The translations under genes and the position numbers were made by a program. From the IMG/VR virus record IMGVR_UViG_3300045117_000491, positions 1 through 32,626 of that record: a DNA stretch of 32,626 bases, one strand, 5' to 3'. Positions 20,306-29,278 of this stretch are shown piece after piece. Each line of letters starts with the position of its first letter. Position 1 is the stretch's first letter. Source of the stretch: a virus. The notes beneath the pieces were generated by a model. That model worked only from the letters and a program-made list of their open reading frames with translations. It was not told the DNA's origin and did not search any database.

Positions 20306-21223
20306 TCAAGCACCCGCCCGGATCGTCGCGTCGGCCTTGAACTTCCCGTCGTGCCCCTCGGCCGCGAGGCGACGGCGCTCGAGCACGTCGTCGACGTCGT
20401 AGGTCACCCGGCCGCTGCCGTCCCGGGCGTGCTTGCGCACGTGGCCGCGCTCTGCCCACTTCCGCAGGGTCGCCATGGACACGCCGTACTCGAGCAGGAT
20501 GTCGCTCGCGCACAGCGCGGTGGCGGTCAACCGGTGCGCGGCGGCCAGTGCTCGGCGGTAGTCCTCGCGCGTCAGCAGGGCGCCACAGCGGGCGCAGTGC
20601 CACTGGTCGTCCTCGCCGTCCACGGCCTCGCCCCAGATCGGCTGCAGCCGACCTCGCTCCTCGCCGGTGCAGCGGATGCAGGGCACGGAGTGGTCGTCGG
20701 GGGAGTCGTGCAGGACGGCCTCGAGCCGGCGGCGGAGTCGGGCGAGGTCGTAGGCCAAGGCGTCGGCCTCGGGGAACCGGGGCTCGCCGGTCAGGTCGGC
20801 GCCAGTGATCCAGTCGAGCTGATTGACCAGGAACGTCAGCTCGCGCTGGATGGACGGCTGCCACTGGGCACCGGGCAGGCCGAGCTCCTTGCGCACGATG
20901 TCGACCCAGGAGCCGAGCACCAGCAGCGGGGGCTGAGGGTCGAGATCGGTGTCGTAGATCTCCGGCCACCGTGGGCGGCGGCCGGCGGCCCGACCGTCGT
21001 AGTACAGGGCCTCGGCGCGGTTCACCTCGCGGTCGAAGTGGGCGTAGGAGACGGCCGTCGGGCCGAGCATCGCCAGCGCGTCCCCCCCGGGCAGGTCGCG
21101 GTCGGAGTGGCGGTGCCACGCCTCGACGCGCAACATGCCGCTGAGGTCGCCCACCTCGTGCAGGTCGCGGGCAATCTCGTGGCGCAGTCGGTCGAGGTGC
21201 TCGCAGGTCTCAGAACGGGACAT
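20306..21223 (-). CDS. Zinc-motif protein with C-terminal MerR-like HTH
   Basis: A 305-aa protein of a type common in actinophage genomes near the replication-terminase boundary. The N-terminal 175 residues are helical without a recognised domain. A zinc ribbon pair follows: CIRC (182-185) and CARC (210-213). Then comes a helix-turn-helix of the excisionase/MerR type at about 232-285 (ATALCASDILLEYGVSMATL and KWAERGHVRKHARDGSGRV), ending with a short basic tail. This combination suggests a DNA-binding regulator, perhaps of late genes, since it precedes the packaging genes. The ATG has AGGAGA seven bases ahead, and the start overlaps the preceding gene by 14 bases. The regulatory role is inferred. 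Confidence 0.65.
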   Translation of the reverse strand: MSRSETCEHLDRLRHEIARDLHEVGDLSGMLRVEAWHRHSDRDLPGGDALAMLGPTAVSYAHFDREVNRAEALYYDGRAAGRRPRWPEIYDTDLDPQPPLLVLGSWVDIVRKELGLPGAQWQPSIQRELTFLVNQLDWITGADLTGEPRFPEADALAYDLARLRRRLEAVLHDSPDDHSVPCIRCTGEERGRLQPIWGEAVDGEDDQWHCARCGALLTREDYRRALAAAHRLTATALCASDILLEYGVSMATLRKWAERGHVRKHARDGSGRVTYDVDDVLERRRLAAEGHDGKFKADATIRAGA

Positions 21224-21629
21224 CGGCGGTCTCCTGTCGGGTGGTGGGGCGGGGAAGTGCGCTGGTGGTGCTCGGCCAGGTCGGGCCGCCGCAGACGTGG
21301 TCGGCGACGACGTCGAAGGTCCGGTCGGGGTCGTCGGGGCTTTGGTCGCGGATCGTCCACTGGTCGCGGCAGTCGAGCGTGAGGCGGCCGGCGAAGATGC
21401 TCAGTCGGTAGGTGCAGGTGCCGCCCATCCGGGCCACGGCCTCGCCGAGCGTGCTGAGCGGGGTCGGGGTGACGGTGGCTGGGCCGGCGCACAGGTCGGC
21501 GTCCAGGCCGACGAGGACGCCCTCGCCGCACCCGTCGCAGCGGCGCCCTCGGGCGGTCCGAGTGACGCCGTCGGTGTTCCATCGGCCGGCGAGGACGAGC
21601 TGCGCCTTGAGCCAGGTCGGCATGCTCAT
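21210..21629 (-). CDS. Hypothetical Cys-rich protein downstream of the candidate origin
   Basis: A 139-aa protein with CDGC (31-34), further cysteines at 47, 72, 87 and 113 and a His at 111, so one or two metal sites are plausible. Strand-rich segments such as TYRLSIFAGRLTLDCRDQW occupy the centre, and a Pro/Thr-rich tail ends the protein. It starts directly after the repeat-rich non-coding block and overlaps the next gene by 14 bases. ATG at 21629 or 21623 are both possible. I do not recognise a family. The position next to the candidate origin could suggest a replication accessory role, but this is speculative. Confidence 0.6.
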   Translation of the reverse strand: MSMPTWLKAQLVLAGRWNTDGVTRTARGRRCDGCGEGVLVGLDADLCAGPATVTPTPLSTLGEAVARMGGTCTYRLSIFAGRLTLDCRDQWTIRDQSPDDPDRTFDVVADHVCGGPTWPSTTSALPRPTTRQETADVPF

Positions 21630-21858
21630 CGGCTCGCCTTGGCAGGGCCCTGAGGGTCACTAGGGTCACTTGGTCCGAAACCTTTGCCACGCGTGCACAT
21701 ACGCGCGTACGCGAGGGAAGTTTCTGGACCAAGTGACCCTAGTGACCCTCGATCACGTTTGCGCAGGTCAGAGGGGGTGAGCGTTGGAAGTTCGGAGCAA
21801 GTGACCCTCGAACTTGTCCACAGTTCGGAGCAAGTGACCCTGTGGACAACCTGCGCGG
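21630..21858. repeat. Candidate replication origin: inverted repeat, iterons and DnaA boxes
   Basis: This 229-base block between the primase-helicase stop and the next gene is dense in repeats. A perfect 25-bp inverted repeat has arms at 21652-21676 and 21726-21750, with a 49-base spacer containing the palindrome CGCGTACGCG. The core AGTGACCCT occurs six times: twice reversed (21653-21661, 21662-21670) and four times forward (21732-21740, 21741-21749, 21800-21808, 21833-21841). A 20-base unit AGTTCGGAGCAAGTGACCCT is directly repeated at 21789-21808 and 21822-21841 (period 33). Two perfect actinobacterial DnaA boxes TTGTCCACA face each other at 21814-21822 (plus) and 21841-21849 (minus). All this is seen directly. 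Origin function is inferred from the architecture and the adjacent replication gene. Confidence 0.65.
21814..21849. promoter_or_regulatory. Pair of inverted DnaA boxes
   Basis: TTGTCCACAG at 21814-21823 and its reverse complement CTGTGGACAA at 21840-21849 flank the last iteron. TTGTCCACA is the consensus actinobacterial DnaA box. Host DnaA binding would explain how a phage without a loader or DnaB gene opens its origin. Confidence 0.6.
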
Positions 21859-24453
21859 TCACCGATCGCTCCAGTGCAGGTCGGTGTCGTTCTCGCTCGT
21901 CGAGGCGAGCGTCAGGCCCGTGTAGTAGCGCCGGCCGCTGGACTTCGTCGTGTCGATCCCGAAGCGGTCGCGCAGCTCCTGGGTGAGCCTGCGGGCGCTC
22001 GCGGGTGACTCCCCGGCGTCGCTGCACCAGCGCTCGTAGGAGGCCCGCAGCTCGGCGACGAGAACCCGCGCTGCGGGGTTGGTCGGGGTGCGAATGACCA
22101 CGTCCTCGACGAAGCGCCCGACGGTGTCCTGATCGGCCGCGTAAGCCTCGGTGGCGGTCGAGACGTCGACCGGCTCGCCCATCCCGTTCGTGGCGTAGTC
22201 GACGGCTCCGCGGATGGCCCAGGCGAGCACGGCTGGGGCTGCCGCAGCGAGCTTGTCGCCCAGAGCGGGGTCGCGGCGCTCGGGCGGGACGATGCGGCTG
22301 AACTCGAGCAGCTTGACCCGGCGCCAGAACGCCATGCCGCCGGTGCTCGCCTGGGGCCGGTGGTTGCCCAGCAGCCAGATGGTGTGGGTCGGGCTGAACG
22401 TGAAGGGCTGGCCGTAGAGGAAGCGGGCGTTGATGCTGTCGCGGCCGGTCAGCTGCTTGATCTTGGCCTCGGCGAACTTCTGGCCGTCGTCGAGCTCGGA
22501 GCAGACCACCAGGCGCGCCCCGGCGAGCTGGGCGAGCTCGGCGGGGTGCTCGGAGTGCTTGCGGATCATCAGCATCTCCGCCGGCGCCGCGATGGCGTAG
22601 CCGGACTCTCCGATCCCGACGGCGTGCATGACGGCCTCGAGCAGCGTGCTCTTGCCGTTGGCGCCCTGGCCGTGCGCGAAGGGCAGCACCTGCTCGAGCA
22701 CCTGGCCGACGAGGCTCACGCCCATCAGGCGCTGCACGTAGTCGCGCAGCACGAGGTTGTCTCCGAACGTGTCAGCCAGGAAGCCCTGCAGGCTCGGGTC
22801 CTCGCGGTCGAAGTCGGGCGCGGCCGTCGTCATCTTCGTGGCGAGCATGGCCGGGTCCGGGGCCTCGAGCGCACCGGTGCGCAGGTTGACCACCCCGCCG
22901 GGGGTGTTCAGGTGCCAGGGGTGGCGGTCCAGCTGGTTGAGCCGGACGACGACGCGCTCGTCGCTCTCGGCCTGGCGCAGGCAGCCGGCGGTCCCGGCGG
23001 CCGAGAGCGCGCGGCGCTTGTGGTTCGTGGCCGCGGTGTCGCCGGCGGGGAAGGTGCGGGCGATGGTCTTGGCGTACTCGCGCACCTGCCCGCCGCCCTT
23101 GGGCTGCCAGCGCCAGACCATGCCGTCCCAGCACAGCCACTTCTCGCGCTCGGGGCAGAACCGGATCAGCTCGCCGTACGCGGCGATGAGCTGCTGAGCA
23201 TGGCCGTCCTCCGAGCGCTCCAGCGTGCTCAAAGCTCGCTGCGGGGCCAGGGCGGTCGCCCCGTTCGTCGGCGTGTCATCGTGCTGCGTGCTCGTCGCCG
23301 TGGCGCTCGCCTGGCCGCCGGGGAGCACCTGGGGCGTCCAGCCGGGCCCGGGCGCGCTCTGGGCCGCCTGAGGGGCGCCGGGGGCAGGCTGGGTGGGTGC
23401 GGGGCCGCCCACGAGCGTCAGGGTGGCGTTGTCGTGCGTGTGCGCGCCGAGCTCGGCGAGGGCCTGCTCGTCGGTCTTGACGGCGATGCGCGCCCGACCC
23501 CAGCCGAGCGCGTCGGCGATCTCTCCGGGCGCCTCCTTGCGCACCTCCCCGCCGCTGAGCAGCTGGCGGAAGCGGCTCGCCAGGGCGTCCACGGCGCGGC
23601 GGTGCGCCTCGGGGCTCAGACAGCCGACGCGGTGCGCAGCGGCGACGCGGGTGGCCTGGGATAGCAGCCAGGGGTGGCGGGCAGCGGGAGAGTCGGTCGC
23701 CCACTGTTCGACCATCGCGCGCACGTAGTGGCAGTCGCGCTCGGAGTAGGCCCAGTCGCCCTCGGGGGCGATGACGGCGCTCAGGGCTTCGCGGTCCTCG
23801 GCCTGCTCGTGCACGCCCCACTCGTCGAGGCGCTCGAGCACGTCGGACGCGGCCAGGGCGAAGCCGGTGTCGGTCAGGCCGATGACCGGCTTGGGCGCGT
23901 CCACGTCCTTGAGGTTCTGGCTGCCGGGCACGCGCAGCACCCGGGCGAGGTCGTAGACGCTGTCGACGGCGCCGCCATGCCGCTCGGCCGCCGCGGCGAC
24001 GAGCCGGCCGAAGCGGCGCAGCATGGCGCGGGCGTCGGGGCCGGTGATGCGCTCGTCGTGCTCGAGCGGCCAGTAGGGCTGCAGCCCGTTGCCCGAGAGC
24101 ACCACGGCGCTCGGGCGCGAGCCCAGCTGCTCGCTCACGGTGGCGATCACGGCCCAGGCGGCATCTGAGGAGCCCATGCCGCCGGCCTTCACGTCGAGGT
24201 CGGCGTAGAGCCCGGCCAGGCGCAGCACCTGCTCGGCCGTGCCGCGGCCGGCGTTCTCGCGCGCGGGTCCCATGACCGGCTGGACCCCGAACCAGACGTT
24301 GGAGCCGGCGAAGGTCTCGACGACCGCGGGCGCGTCGGCAGCCGCGACGACCGAGGAGGAGAAGATGCCGCCGGGGCGCTGGTGGCAGACGGCGACGTGC
24401 GAGCCGTGGCCGAGCAGCTCGAGCAGGTCGGCGAAGGAGAGCGGGGTCGTCAC
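21859..24453 (-). CDS. Primase-polymerase / SF3 helicase fusion replication protein
   Basis: An 864-aa protein in three parts. Residues about 1-230 are an archaeo-eukaryotic-type primase-polymerase: metal-binding LYADLDVKAGG (Asp85, Asp87), then SGNGLQPYWPL (120-130) and RVLRVPGSQNLKD. Residues about 345-405 form a Pro/Ala/Gln/Thr-rich linker. The C-terminal half is a D5-type SF3 helicase, with Walker A GQGANGKST at 595-603, Walker B VVCSELDDG at 649-657 and motif C TIWLLGNHRP (691-700). A winged-helix-like tail ends the protein. The enzyme would prime and unwind at the phage origin. The GTG start lies 85 bases after the upstream gene, beyond a hairpin. The candidate origin begins right at its stop codon. 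The assignment is firm. Confidence 0.92.
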   Translation of the reverse strand: MTTPLSFADLLELLGHGSHVAVCHQRPGGIFSSSVVAAADAPAVVETFAGSNVWFGVQPVMGPARENAGRGTAEQVLRLAGLYADLDVKAGGMGSSDAAWAVIATVSEQLGSRPSAVVLSGNGLQPYWPLEHDERITGPDARAMLRRFGRLVAAAAERHGGAVDSVYDLARVLRVPGSQNLKDVDAPKPVIGLTDTGFALAASDVLERLDEWGVHEQAEDREALSAVIAPEGDWAYSERDCHYVRAMVEQWATDSPAARHPWLLSQATRVAAAHRVGCLSPEAHRRAVDALASRFRQLLSGGEVRKEAPGEIADALGWGRARIAVKTDEQALAELGAHTHDNATLTLVGGPAPTQPAPGAPQAAQSAPGPGWTPQVLPGGQASATATSTQHDDTPTNGATALAPQRALSTLERSEDGHAQQLIAAYGELIRFCPEREKWLCWDGMVWRWQPKGGGQVREYAKTIARTFPAGDTAATNHKRRALSAAGTAGCLRQAESDERVVVRLNQLDRHPWHLNTPGGVVNLRTGALEAPDPAMLATKMTTAAPDFDREDPSLQGFLADTFGDNLVLRDYVQRLMGVSLVGQVLEQVLPFAHGQGANGKSTLLEAVMHAVGIGESGYAIAAPAEMLMIRKHSEHPAELAQLAGARLVVCSELDDGQKFAEAKIKQLTGRDSINARFLYGQPFTFSPTHTIWLLGNHRPQASTGGMAFWRRVKLLEFSRIVPPERRDPALGDKLAAAAPAVLAWAIRGAVDYATNGMGEPVDVSTATEAYAADQDTVGRFVEDVVIRTPTNPAARVLVAELRASYERWCSDAGESPASARRLTQELRDRFGIDTTKSSGRRYYTGLTLASTSENDTDLHWSDR

Positions 24454-27341: not shown

Positions 27342-27641
27342 TCACTCCATGACCTCCGGAGCGACGCCCGACCCGGGGCAGCGCAGCGTCATGGAGCCGA
27401 CGCGCTTGGTGTGCTCGCGGAACACGAGCTCGCCATCGGCGTCGCGGACCAGGCTGGTCTTGCCGTCGTTGCGCGCGGTGCGCTCGAAGCGGTGCGACGG
27501 GCAGACGGCGTAGCCAGCGGTCTTCGCGGTCTTGCGCTTCACGGGTGCCAGCGCGGTGCCAGCGTCGACCTCCTCGAGCCCGAGAAGGCTGTCCTGCGGG
27601 ATGTCGGCGTGGCGCTTCTGGATCTTGCTCAGGTCGCTCAT
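27342..27641 (-). CDS. Hypothetical 99-aa protein with possible zinc site
   Basis: The product has a basic helical start (MSDLSKIQKRHADIPQDSLL), then TAGYAVCPSHRFERTARNDG and SMTLRCPGSGV. The two Cys-Pro turns and the His between them suggest a small zinc ribbon or a pseudo-ribbon. The ATG overlaps the WhiB stop by four bases. The end is only five bases from the end of the convergent membrane protein gene. I do not recognise the family. It is probably the last gene of the early WhiB operon. Confidence 0.6.
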   Translation of the reverse strand: MSDLSKIQKRHADIPQDSLLGLEEVDAGTALAPVKRKTAKTAGYAVCPSHRFERTARNDGKTSLVRDADGELVFREHTKRVGSMTLRCPGSGVAPEVME

Positions 27642-28069
27642 GCCGCGCGCTCCGGGCGGTGCGGCGCGGTGTTGACGGGCAGGCCCATGCGCGAGCGGGC
27701 GCGCTGGACGGTCGCGGTGTTGCAGTCGACTTCGCGCGCGATCTGTCCGTCGGTCATCCCTGCGGCATGCAGCGCGCGCAGGCGGTCCGTGCTCAGGACC
27801 CGCTCACGCGACGGGGCGGGGATGTCCTCGGCCTTCACGAGCTTGCGCCGCTCACGCTCGGACAGGCCACCCCAGATGCCGTGCGCCTCACGGTCCGCGA
27901 GCGCCTGGGCGAGGCACTGCTCGCGGACCGGGCACAGCGAGCACGCCCGCTTCGCCTCCTTGGTCGAGCCGCCCTTCTCAGGGAAAAACAGCTCGGTGTC
28001 GATCTGGGCGCACAGGGCTTCGTCCATCCACGGACGGGCGGCGAGCAGGCGCTCGAGCCCGGTGCTCAT
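27638..28069 (-). CDS. WhiB-family transcription factor with extra C-terminal HTH
   Basis: A 143-aa regulator. The WhiB domain has four iron-sulphur cysteines (Cys20, Cys43, Cys46, Cys52; ALCAQID, RACSLCPVREQCL) and the turn GIWGG (64-68) followed by the basic LSERERRKL. WhiB proteins bind a [4Fe-4S] cluster and modify sigma-factor-dependent transcription, and they are restricted to actinobacteria and their phages. Residues about 88-130 (STDRLRALHAAGMTDGQIAR, then EVDCNTATVQRARSRMGLP) add a helix-turn-helix not found in short WhiB proteins. The ATG overlaps the upstream Lsr2-like gene end by four bases. It may control early-late switching or host genes. The family call is firm, the target unknown. 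Confidence 0.92.
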   Translation of the reverse strand: MSTGLERLLAARPWMDEALCAQIDTELFFPEKGGSTKEAKRACSLCPVREQCLAQALADREAHGIWGGLSERERRKLVKAEDIPAPSRERVLSTDRLRALHAAGMTDGQIAREVDCNTATVQRARSRMGLPVNTAPHRPERAA

Positions 28070-28734
28070 GCCGCACCCGCCTCGTGGGCGCGGACGTACG
28101 CCTCCTTGATCGAGTCGGGGACGCGCCCGAACTTCGGGCAGTCGAGACCTTCGCTCTTCGCCCACAGGCGGATCTCCGCGGCGGGCACACCCGCCTCGAC
28201 CTTGGGAGAGCTCGTGTAGGGCGTGGGAGGGAGGGTCGCCGCACGGCTGGTCGAGGCGGGCGCGTTCGTGGGCCCTGCCGCGGTGGCGAGGGCCTGGATG
28301 GCCTGCACGGCGAGCTTGCGCAGGTCGCGCACGAGCTTGTCCGGGTGGCCTTCGGTGGTGGACAGCACGAGGGCGGCGTCGCGCACGTAGGTCGTGACGA
28401 CGGTCGGCGCTCCTTCGGTGCTGGTGACGAGCTCGGGCATGGGCACCTCCGTGGTGCTGGTCTGGATGGTCGTGTCGTGCTGGCGGTACGGGTCGGCCTC
28501 GCGGACCTCGTCGTAGTGCTGCTGGCATCGGCCGGGATCGGGGGAGTCGGCGGGCGCGGCGCAGACGTGACACCGCCGGACCCGCGCGGTGGGCGCGGCG
28601 TCGTCCTCGAAGCGCGGCCGCATGGAGGACCAGTCGAGACCGACCTGCTTCGGCTTCGGCGCGCCGTAGGGCACGTGCAGCGGCGGCAGTGGGGCGTCCC
28701 CGCCGGCGACATGCGTCAGGCTCGAGCCCTTCAT
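28066..28734 (-). CDS. Lsr2-like DNA-binding protein with N-terminal zinc motif
   Basis: The 222-aa frame ends in a clear Lsr2 C-terminal domain (about 185-217): AAEIRLWAKSEGLDCPKFGR then VPDSIKEAYVRAH, matching the EIRxWAxxxG...RGRxPxxxxEAYxxAH pattern of this xenogeneic silencer. The N-terminal half has CHVC (55-58) and Cys70/His73, a likely zinc site. The centre (about 99-155) is an unusual strand-helix part. Translation starting at 28734 is supported by an ATGA overlap with the upstream gene. A second ATG at 28440 (MPELVTSTEG) has GGAGG five bases ahead and could give a 124-residue short form with only the Lsr2-type part. Two products from one frame are possible. The fold of the N-terminus is inferred. 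Confidence 0.78.
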   Translation of the reverse strand: MKGSSLTHVAGGDAPLPPLHVPYGAPKPKQVGLDWSSMRPRFEDDAAPTARVRRCHVCAAPADSPDPGRCQQHYDEVREADPYRQHDTTIQTSTTEVPMPELVTSTEGAPTVVTTYVRDAALVLSTTEGHPDKLVRDLRKLAVQAIQALATAAGPTNAPASTSRAATLPPTPYTSSPKVEAGVPAAEIRLWAKSEGLDCPKFGRVPDSIKEAYVRAHEAGAA

Positions 28735-28913
28735 CGTCGCCACCACCGCTTCTCGCGCGGCGGCACCGGCACGCGGGCCACGGCCGGGTCGCGCAGAACG
28801 GGCGCCGGCTCGGCGACGTGCCGCCCACGGCCGGTGCACACCGGGCACGCCTTGCCCAGCGGGGTGGCCAGATGGACCTGGCAGACGGGGCACCAGGTGT
28901 TCGCGGCGGTCAT
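28731..28913 (-). CDS. Small zinc ribbon protein
   Basis: A 60-aa protein with two Cys-x-x-Cys knuckles (WCPVCQVHL and ACPVCTGRG), which together form a rubredoxin-like zinc ribbon. A basic, Pro-rich tail ends in EKRWWRR. ATG and stop both overlap neighbours by four bases (ATGA). Small ribbons in phage early regions often bind host proteins or nucleic acid, but this is a family-level expectation and not shown here. Confidence 0.75.
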   Translation of the reverse strand: MTAANTWCPVCQVHLATPLGKACPVCTGRGRHVAEPAPVLRDPAVARVPVPPREKRWWRR

Positions 28914-29278
28914 CGGTCCACCCGCTCACCGGTGAGCAGGGCCACGAGGTCGCGCACGGTCATGAACACGACCTGCTCGAGCGGGTCGGTCGTGCCGCGG
29001 CGCTTGGCGACCACGAGCCCGGCGAGGGCGTCGTCGTTGCCGCGCTCGGCCTCGGCCTCGGCCAGCCACGGGCCGACGCTGTACCGGCCCCCGTAGTCCT
29101 TGCACTCCAGGACCAGGCGCTCGCCGCGGTGGCGGACGCCGGTGATGTCGCCGCGGTCCTTCGCGCCCGTCTTCACGCGCCGGTCGATCCGGTCGTCGAC
29201 GAGCTCGGCGAGGCAGTCCGCGATGGAGCGCTCGAAGCGGGAGCCGGCGGCCTTGGCCGACTGGCGCGAGCGGCTCAT
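28910..29278 (-). CDS. PD-(D/E)XK nuclease, Holliday junction resolvase-like
   Basis: A 122-aa protein with the compact resolvase layout: Glu16 in GSRFERSIADCLAEL, Asp44 in DRGDITGVRH and Glu58-Cys-Lys60 in RLVLECKDYGG. These fit the E-D-ExK metal site of Hjc/endonuclease VII-like PD-(D/E)XK enzymes. The helical second half (EAEAERGNDDALAGLVVAKR) fits as well. It likely resolves branched DNA before packaging or during recombination. The ATG overlaps the upstream gene by four bases, and the next gene overlaps its end by four. Alternatively it may be a restriction-like nuclease. Confidence 0.8.
   Translation of the reverse strand: MSRSRQSAKAAGSRFERSIADCLAELVDDRIDRRVKTGAKDRGDITGVRHRGERLVLECKDYGGRYSVGPWLAEAEAERGNDDALAGLVVAKRRGTTDPLEQVVFMTVRDLVALLTGERVDR

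Follow-up and report, generated by a model that had tools for sequence, protein, structure and literature searches.

Where does replication begin in a temperate phage that encodes its own primase-helicase, and which protein would recognise the start site? We addressed this question in IMG/VR record IMGVR_UViG_3300045117_000491. The window (the whole 32,626-bp stretch analysed) has the gene content of a temperate phage, with genes for an endolysin, tape measure, major head protein, portal, terminase and exonuclease, and also for a RusA-like resolvase, WhiB, a repressor-like protein, a metalloprotease-like protein and an integrase. The stretch 27638-28929 holds the WhiB-like gene and an adjoining ORF with a weak Lsr2-like match. 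As the earlier note had stated, a DNA polymerase is missing from the genes scanned, in a record that is classed as linear or unclosed and may be incomplete.

Repeats in the gap 3' of the primase-helicase gene

The primase-helicase gene and the next gene, both on the minus strand, are separated by 229 bp in which no credible conserved ORF was seen. The earlier note, made from the sequence alone, had read this gap as a plasmid-type iteron origin without a credible gene. The features of the locus are as follows.

21210-21629, minus: small cysteine-containing gene, 3' boundary of the origin cassette (phrog_16156, function unknown)
21630-21858, no strand: intergenic origin block (229 bp), in which the repeats cluster; an equivalent block lies 3' of the primase gene in relatives
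21652-21676, plus: perfect 25-bp inverted repeat, left arm
21653-21661, minus: iteron 1 (outer, left arm)
21662-21670, minus: iteron 2 (inner, left arm)
21671-21731, no strand: spacer of 61 bp that separates the tandem-iteron arms (putative opening zone)
21688-21713, no strand: 26-bp alternating purine-pyrimidine tract at the spacer centre
21726-21750, plus: perfect 25-bp inverted repeat, right arm
21732-21740, plus: iteron 3 (inner, right arm)
21741-21749, plus: iteron 4 (outer, right arm)
21760-21771, plus: TGCGCAGGTCAG element between the direct iterons and the palindrome, common to a minority of relatives
21800-21808, plus: iteron 5, within the 20-bp direct repeat copy 21789-21808
21814-21822, plus: DnaA box TTGTCCACA
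21833-21841, plus: iteron 6, within the 20-bp direct repeat copy 21822-21841
21841-21849, minus: DnaA box TTGTCCACA, inverted
21859-24453, minus: primase-helicase of the D5/P4 family (864 aa; Pfam D5_N, DUF5906), proposed initiator
21910-22119, minus: codons for about aa 779-848, the predicted C-terminal winged helix and putative iteron reader (AlphaFold2, Foldseek and iteron coupling)

The iteron AGTGACCCT occurs exactly six times in the record, twice on the minus and four times on the plus strand, and all copies lie within 21653-21841; 0.17 copies are expected by chance, and none of 100 shuffles reached six. The arms of the 25-bp inverted repeat are perfect complements, and with a few mismatches the repeat reaches 21652-21684/21718-21750 (91% over 33 bp). 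The 9-bp iteron spacing of the left arm (21653/21662) is mirrored in the right arm (21732/21741), and the two copies of the 20-nt direct repeat, 33 bp apart, are 100% identical. The two facing boxes of the form TTGTCCACA (TTRTCCACA) are the only ones in the record, with 0.03 expected. All these elements had been described in the earlier note, and each proved correct.

The spacer is not AT-rich; its GC fraction is 0.59 (vs 0.71), and at its centre lies the alternating tract, a CG/CA sequence in the place normally expected for an AT-rich opening element. Phage P4 uses a second site, crr. In this record, which may be incomplete, no second, crr-like cluster of AGTGACCCT was found. GC skew along the record showed no turning point at the block, which argues neither for nor against an origin.

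Occurrence of the layout in related loci

A single-sequence search of genome contigs returned no relatives, but an alignment-based search did, and by alignment of the helicase half we gathered 80 viral and 80 genome loci. Direct DNA similarity to known phages gave nothing useful (the match to Cornie was 28 bp, E 0.08). Among viral contigs, the nearest two relatives of the primase (best-segment identity 68 and 60%) have a like block at a like place; it contains AGGGTCACTTACTCCGAAACC-type repeats, and its palindrome surrounds an alternating tract. In the corresponding gap, mycobacteriophage Ekdilam carries GGCACAGAT repeats, Gordonia phage GMA4 carries CACGGGTGC repeats, and further viral contigs carry other 9-mers. 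Annotated hypothetical genes, which may be spurious, lie over the iteron block in Arthrobacter phage Constance (gp60, L022:4467-4808) and in Aminay (gp70, L026:5635-5796).

A single pipeline took the 460 bp spanning and following each primase stop, picked the best repeated 9-mer and refined it; it then required two oppositely oriented tandem pairs at a distance of 40-110 bp. Random regions from these loci were put through it as controls. Inverted tandem arms were present directly 3' of the primase gene in 75 of 121 distinct non-Streptomyces loci vs 1 of 242 controls, although these loci share ancestry and their counts are thus not independent events. For the other 46 the pipeline found no paired arms; some of them have scattered iterons and some show nothing clear. 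A period of 9 predominates, with a spacer mode of 60-62 bp; the values in this phage are 9 and 61. The layout offers a rule for finding origins in dozens of actinobacterial phages and prophages: directly 3' of the D5-type primase gene. In open papers, the literature that the search covered (most subscription papers lay outside it), no previous account of such a layout from actinophages was found.

The arms of 48 loci gave the consensus A-N-(G/C)-(T/C)-G-T-C-A-(C/T), i.e. A-NNN-GTCA(C/T), with a conserved core (G 98%, C 94%, A 90%) and with positions 2-4 variable between phages. In the register common to the relatives, the 9-bp unit of this phage reads AAGTGACCC and TAGTGACCC, departing from the consensus at two core positions; in close relatives the repeat lengthens to about 20 bp (AGGGTCACTTNNTCCGAAAC). 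Mean GC of the spacer in relatives was 0.58 vs 0.68 for the locus. In 52 of 73 loci the spacer held 12 or more consecutive alternating purines and pyrimidines, vs 0 of 313 control segments, and the tract centre deviated from the spacer midpoint by 2.3 bp (sd 3.1) in the 46 of 48 loci with a run of at least 10. The TGCGCAGGTCAG element, with at most one mismatch, was seen in 11 of 113 relatives vs 4 of 565 controls.

Two perfect DnaA boxes, the sole ones in the record, could suggest that host DnaA opens the DNA there and that the repeats are accessory. Exact boxes are indeed enriched in relatives, at 9 of 113 (8%) vs 7 of 565 control segments (1%), but they are rare, being missing from more than 90% of the relatives. 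We consider a DnaA-dependent origin highly improbable. Of the earlier proposal that the boxes form part of the origin, their presence in this phage holds, while across the relatives they are a lineage-specific extra.

The layout has limits. In the Streptomyces/Nonomuraea group (L155-L193), 0 of 38 loci had downstream iterons; in several members the primase start is instead preceded by 9-bp repeats, for example AGCGACTGA. Three Streptomyces loci (L161, L174 and L192) carry 7-12 copies of GTGATTACG repeats, with pairs 10 bp apart, distant from the primase stop. No clear iteron block was seen directly downstream in relatives beyond the actinobacterial group or in some distant actinophages (phiC31, BPP-1, Joemato, Cappuccino).

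The iteron itself, which the earlier note had thought possibly new, is not unique to this phage: tandem copies of AGTGACCCT recur in other viral contigs, in one of them directly 3' of a VapE-type helicase gene. In the IMG/VR contig L200, AGTGACCC iterons form inverted clusters (2715-2890) directly 3' of a gene with a VapE-like domain (1491-2714); no relative of this phage's primase is detectable in L200, so that a like iteron stands beside another helicase family. At L202:20-190 and L199:1-440, AGTGACCCT or AGGGTCACT repeats likewise stand in tandem beside other genes, arranged much as in an origin; the stretch examined there contains no relative of this phage's primase.

The primase-helicase C-terminus and the iterons

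The product of the gene adjacent to the block matched TIGR01613 (primase_Cterm), D5_N and DUF5906 above the cut-offs and phrog_2478 with E=4e-229. In an AlphaFold2 model, its C-terminal region (pLDDT 89.7) is predicted to be a DNA-binding winged helix. Based on Foldseek, this model matched the RFX-type winged-helix DNA-binding domain 1dp7 (TMt 0.74, rmsd 2.0) and also the ASFV primase-polymerase (AsfvPrimPol), with marginal E-values (about 1e-3); a profile search independently found the ASFV protein (E 2e-5). The domain of P4 alpha was not among the best 50 fold matches. The helicase half, whose modelled ATPase core is poor, matched solved relatives, namely hexamers and dodecamers of ASFV PrimPol and the head-to-head double hexamer of MPXV E5. 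RFX proteins recognise GTNRCC, which resembles GTGACC of this phage, a lead only.

Across 80 loci, iteron distance was correlated with identity of the C-terminal domain (aa 779-848; partial r -0.21 with the other regions controlled for, 0 of 1,000 permutations), whereas for the ATPase core partial r was +0.06, and the region before the core gave a weaker value (-0.14). Where two loci had cores more than 0.8 identical, their C-terminal identity dropped from 0.75 to 0.56 with growing iteron divergence. The correlation is modest and the loci are phylogenetically related; judged from these sequence comparisons, iteron identity appears to follow the C-terminal winged helix and not the ATPase core. 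Many natural pairs of winged-helix and iteron sequences are thereby at hand, a possible source for a recognition code.

Two natural swaps between otherwise near-identical phages, as their alignments indicate, have replaced the C-terminal part of the protein along with the origin. In L014 and L019, the first 300 aa of the primase are 96-100% identical, the C-termini are 20% identical and the iterons are unrelated; identity of 99.8% resumes at the start of the next gene. Because this swap also exchanges the helicase half, it cannot by itself isolate the winged helix. In L016 and L018, aa 51 to 750 are 84-98% identical, and identity then falls to 70 and 50% at the C-terminus; the iterons differ (CTGTCAC-type vs GGGGTACT-type), and the DNA after the block is again 90% identical. 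These two loci correspond to two contigs of one Nocardiopsis salina genome (L147/L148). Such exchanges suggest how related prophages avoid cross-initiation in one host.

The position of the block and its exchange with the primase C-terminus bear on two other readings. Since a repressor-like gene and an integrase are present and repeats inside an operon can be stoperators, the array could be an operator/stoperator array for the phage repressor or an element of transcription control or termination in the late operon. However, AGTGACCCT occurs neither near the repressor gene nor elsewhere in the record, no T-run follows the inverted repeat, and in diverse phages the block lies 3' of the primase gene and swaps with the C-terminus of its product; this explanation has a very small chance of being right. 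Smaller still is that of a site for packaging (cos/pac) or partition. In its favour, the terminase genes are about 2-4 kb distant, but the block remains with the primase gene in mycobacteriophages and others, and no ParA/ParB-like match was found among the genes scanned.

An iteron replication origin, as claimed in the earlier note, is supported by the recurrence of the architecture in relatives and by its movement with the primase gene. The plasmid-type part of that claim needs amending. Rep-type iteron plasmids of the RK2 and pSC101 kind likewise combine iterons with DnaA boxes, but this phage had no Rep-type initiator match among the genes scanned; the origin is neither Rep-type nor DnaA-type, and its initiator is most likely the SF3 primase-helicase, acting through its C-terminal winged helix.

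Related helicase systems and a proposed initiation scheme

The pRN1 family of crenarchaeal plasmids (pRN1, pHEN7, pRN2 and pDL10) resembles the phage in that the block lies 3' of the gene for a D5/SF3 primase-helicase with a C-terminal winged helix and has inverted arms of about 20 bp, separated by 57-58 bp (72 bp in pDL10); in the phage, 18-bp iteron arms flank a 61-bp spacer. Unlike the phage, these plasmids have an AT-rich spacer, an archaeal host and no reported extra direct iterons. According to the pRN1 study, a 100-bp element 3' of the primase-helicase gene is necessary and sufficient as the origin; it was interpreted there as a stem-loop without iterons, and its recurrence in Bordetella phages was suggested (PMC4234260).

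Inspection of the sequences showed tandem 9-mers in the arms of pRN1, pHEN7 and pRN2, whose spacers measure 57-58 bp. The units are TTATGTCCA and TAGTGTCCA in pRN1, TTATGTCAC and CACTGTCAC in pHEN7, and ATCGGACCG and ATAGGACAG in pRN2; those of pHEN7 fit the actinophage core. Offset 9 was best in all four plasmids (combined P 3e-5 for the pre-chosen offset), although in pDL10 it was weak and the period not significant. pSSVx, whose replication gene appears to cross the start of its record, lay outside this comparison. The inverted repeat of BPP-1 showed no clear 9-bp period.

An origin recognised as an extruded stem-loop, with incidental repeats in the arms, as proposed for pRN1 and Bordetella phage BIP-1, would fit the perfect 25-bp stem of this phage and the pRN1 element described above. 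Such a stem is not conserved among the relatives: in 73 of them the median perfect stem was 11 bp, with 40 below 12 bp, while the iterons persist. In 26 of the 73, the two arms have unlike internal periods, which makes continuous pairing impossible, and at least three extra iterons lie outside the arms in 70. Moreover, three of the four pRN arms are themselves tandem 9-mers. We regard a hairpin origin as very improbable. The published deletions of one arm and of the loop, as given in the text covered, do not separate a hairpin from iteron pairs (PMC4234260). Since most relatives lack a good hairpin, the conserved feature is the paired protein sites, and the archaeal pRN origins are open to reinterpretation in the same terms.

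SaPI Rep and SCCmec Cch2 recognise iterons directly 3' of their own gene via a C-terminal domain (PMC7581432). The phage shares with them a self-loading helicase of the D5/P4 SF3 kind, short repeats directly 3' of its gene and a predicted C-terminal DNA-binding domain. The iteron layout was compared with that of SCCmec Cch2, whose sites are three 5-nt direct repeats (PMC7581432), in contrast to the 9-bp units, inverted tandem pairs and central alternating tract of the phage. In P4, according to the pRN1 report, the C-terminal winged helix of the alpha primase-helicase binds repeats at the origin (PMC4234260), an arrangement like that proposed for the phage, although P4 alpha has a TOPRIM primase and the phage origin has one repeat cluster only. 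The phage locus is very probably an origin of the SaPI/pRN1 kind, here with inverted tandem pairs of 9-mers.

SV40 T-antigen and papillomavirus E1 are SF3 helicases that act as double hexamers on inverted short sites; their N-terminal DNA-binding domain is unrelated, and the sites are pentameric or hexameric. The analogy to SV40 is also drawn in the pRN1 report (PMC4234260).

Very probably, the phage starts replication at this block, its own primase-helicase reading the site through the winged helix and the facing pairs of iterons loading two hexamers. The winged-helix domain would recognise the 9-bp iterons, and the tandem copies, two per side and facing across about 60 bp, would bring two SF3 helicase hexamers onto the DNA in a head-to-head arrangement. 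The earlier note had pictured two dimers facing each other; two facing hexamers are more likely. The outlying direct copies may raise the local concentration of the initiator or regulate initiation. The hexamers would open the spacer, whose GC content is below that of the genome and whose centre is the alternating CG/CA tract; the primase half would then lay primers there for a host polymerase, and replication would start bidirectionally. The DnaA boxes may recruit host DnaA as an accessory.

A layout of paired 9-base sites recurs in dozens of actinobacterial phages and in archaeal plasmids. On a wider reading, which we consider about evenly balanced as a whole, D5/SF3 primase-helicases with a winged helix would share one design from archaeal plasmids to actinobacterial phages: tandem pairs of 9-bp sites (core TGTC or GTCA) would face each other across about 60 bp, in the phages with an alternating purine-pyrimidine tract mid-spacer; the helicase C-terminus and origin would form a swappable cassette that lets several elements replicate in one cell; and the published pRN stem-loops would be misread iteron pairs.

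The N-terminal primase modules were compared with those of L014 and L007. A Prim-Pol Pfam match was found in L014 and none in this phage; the N-terminal modules differ although the helicase halves are related, which suggests that primase type and origin module combine freely.
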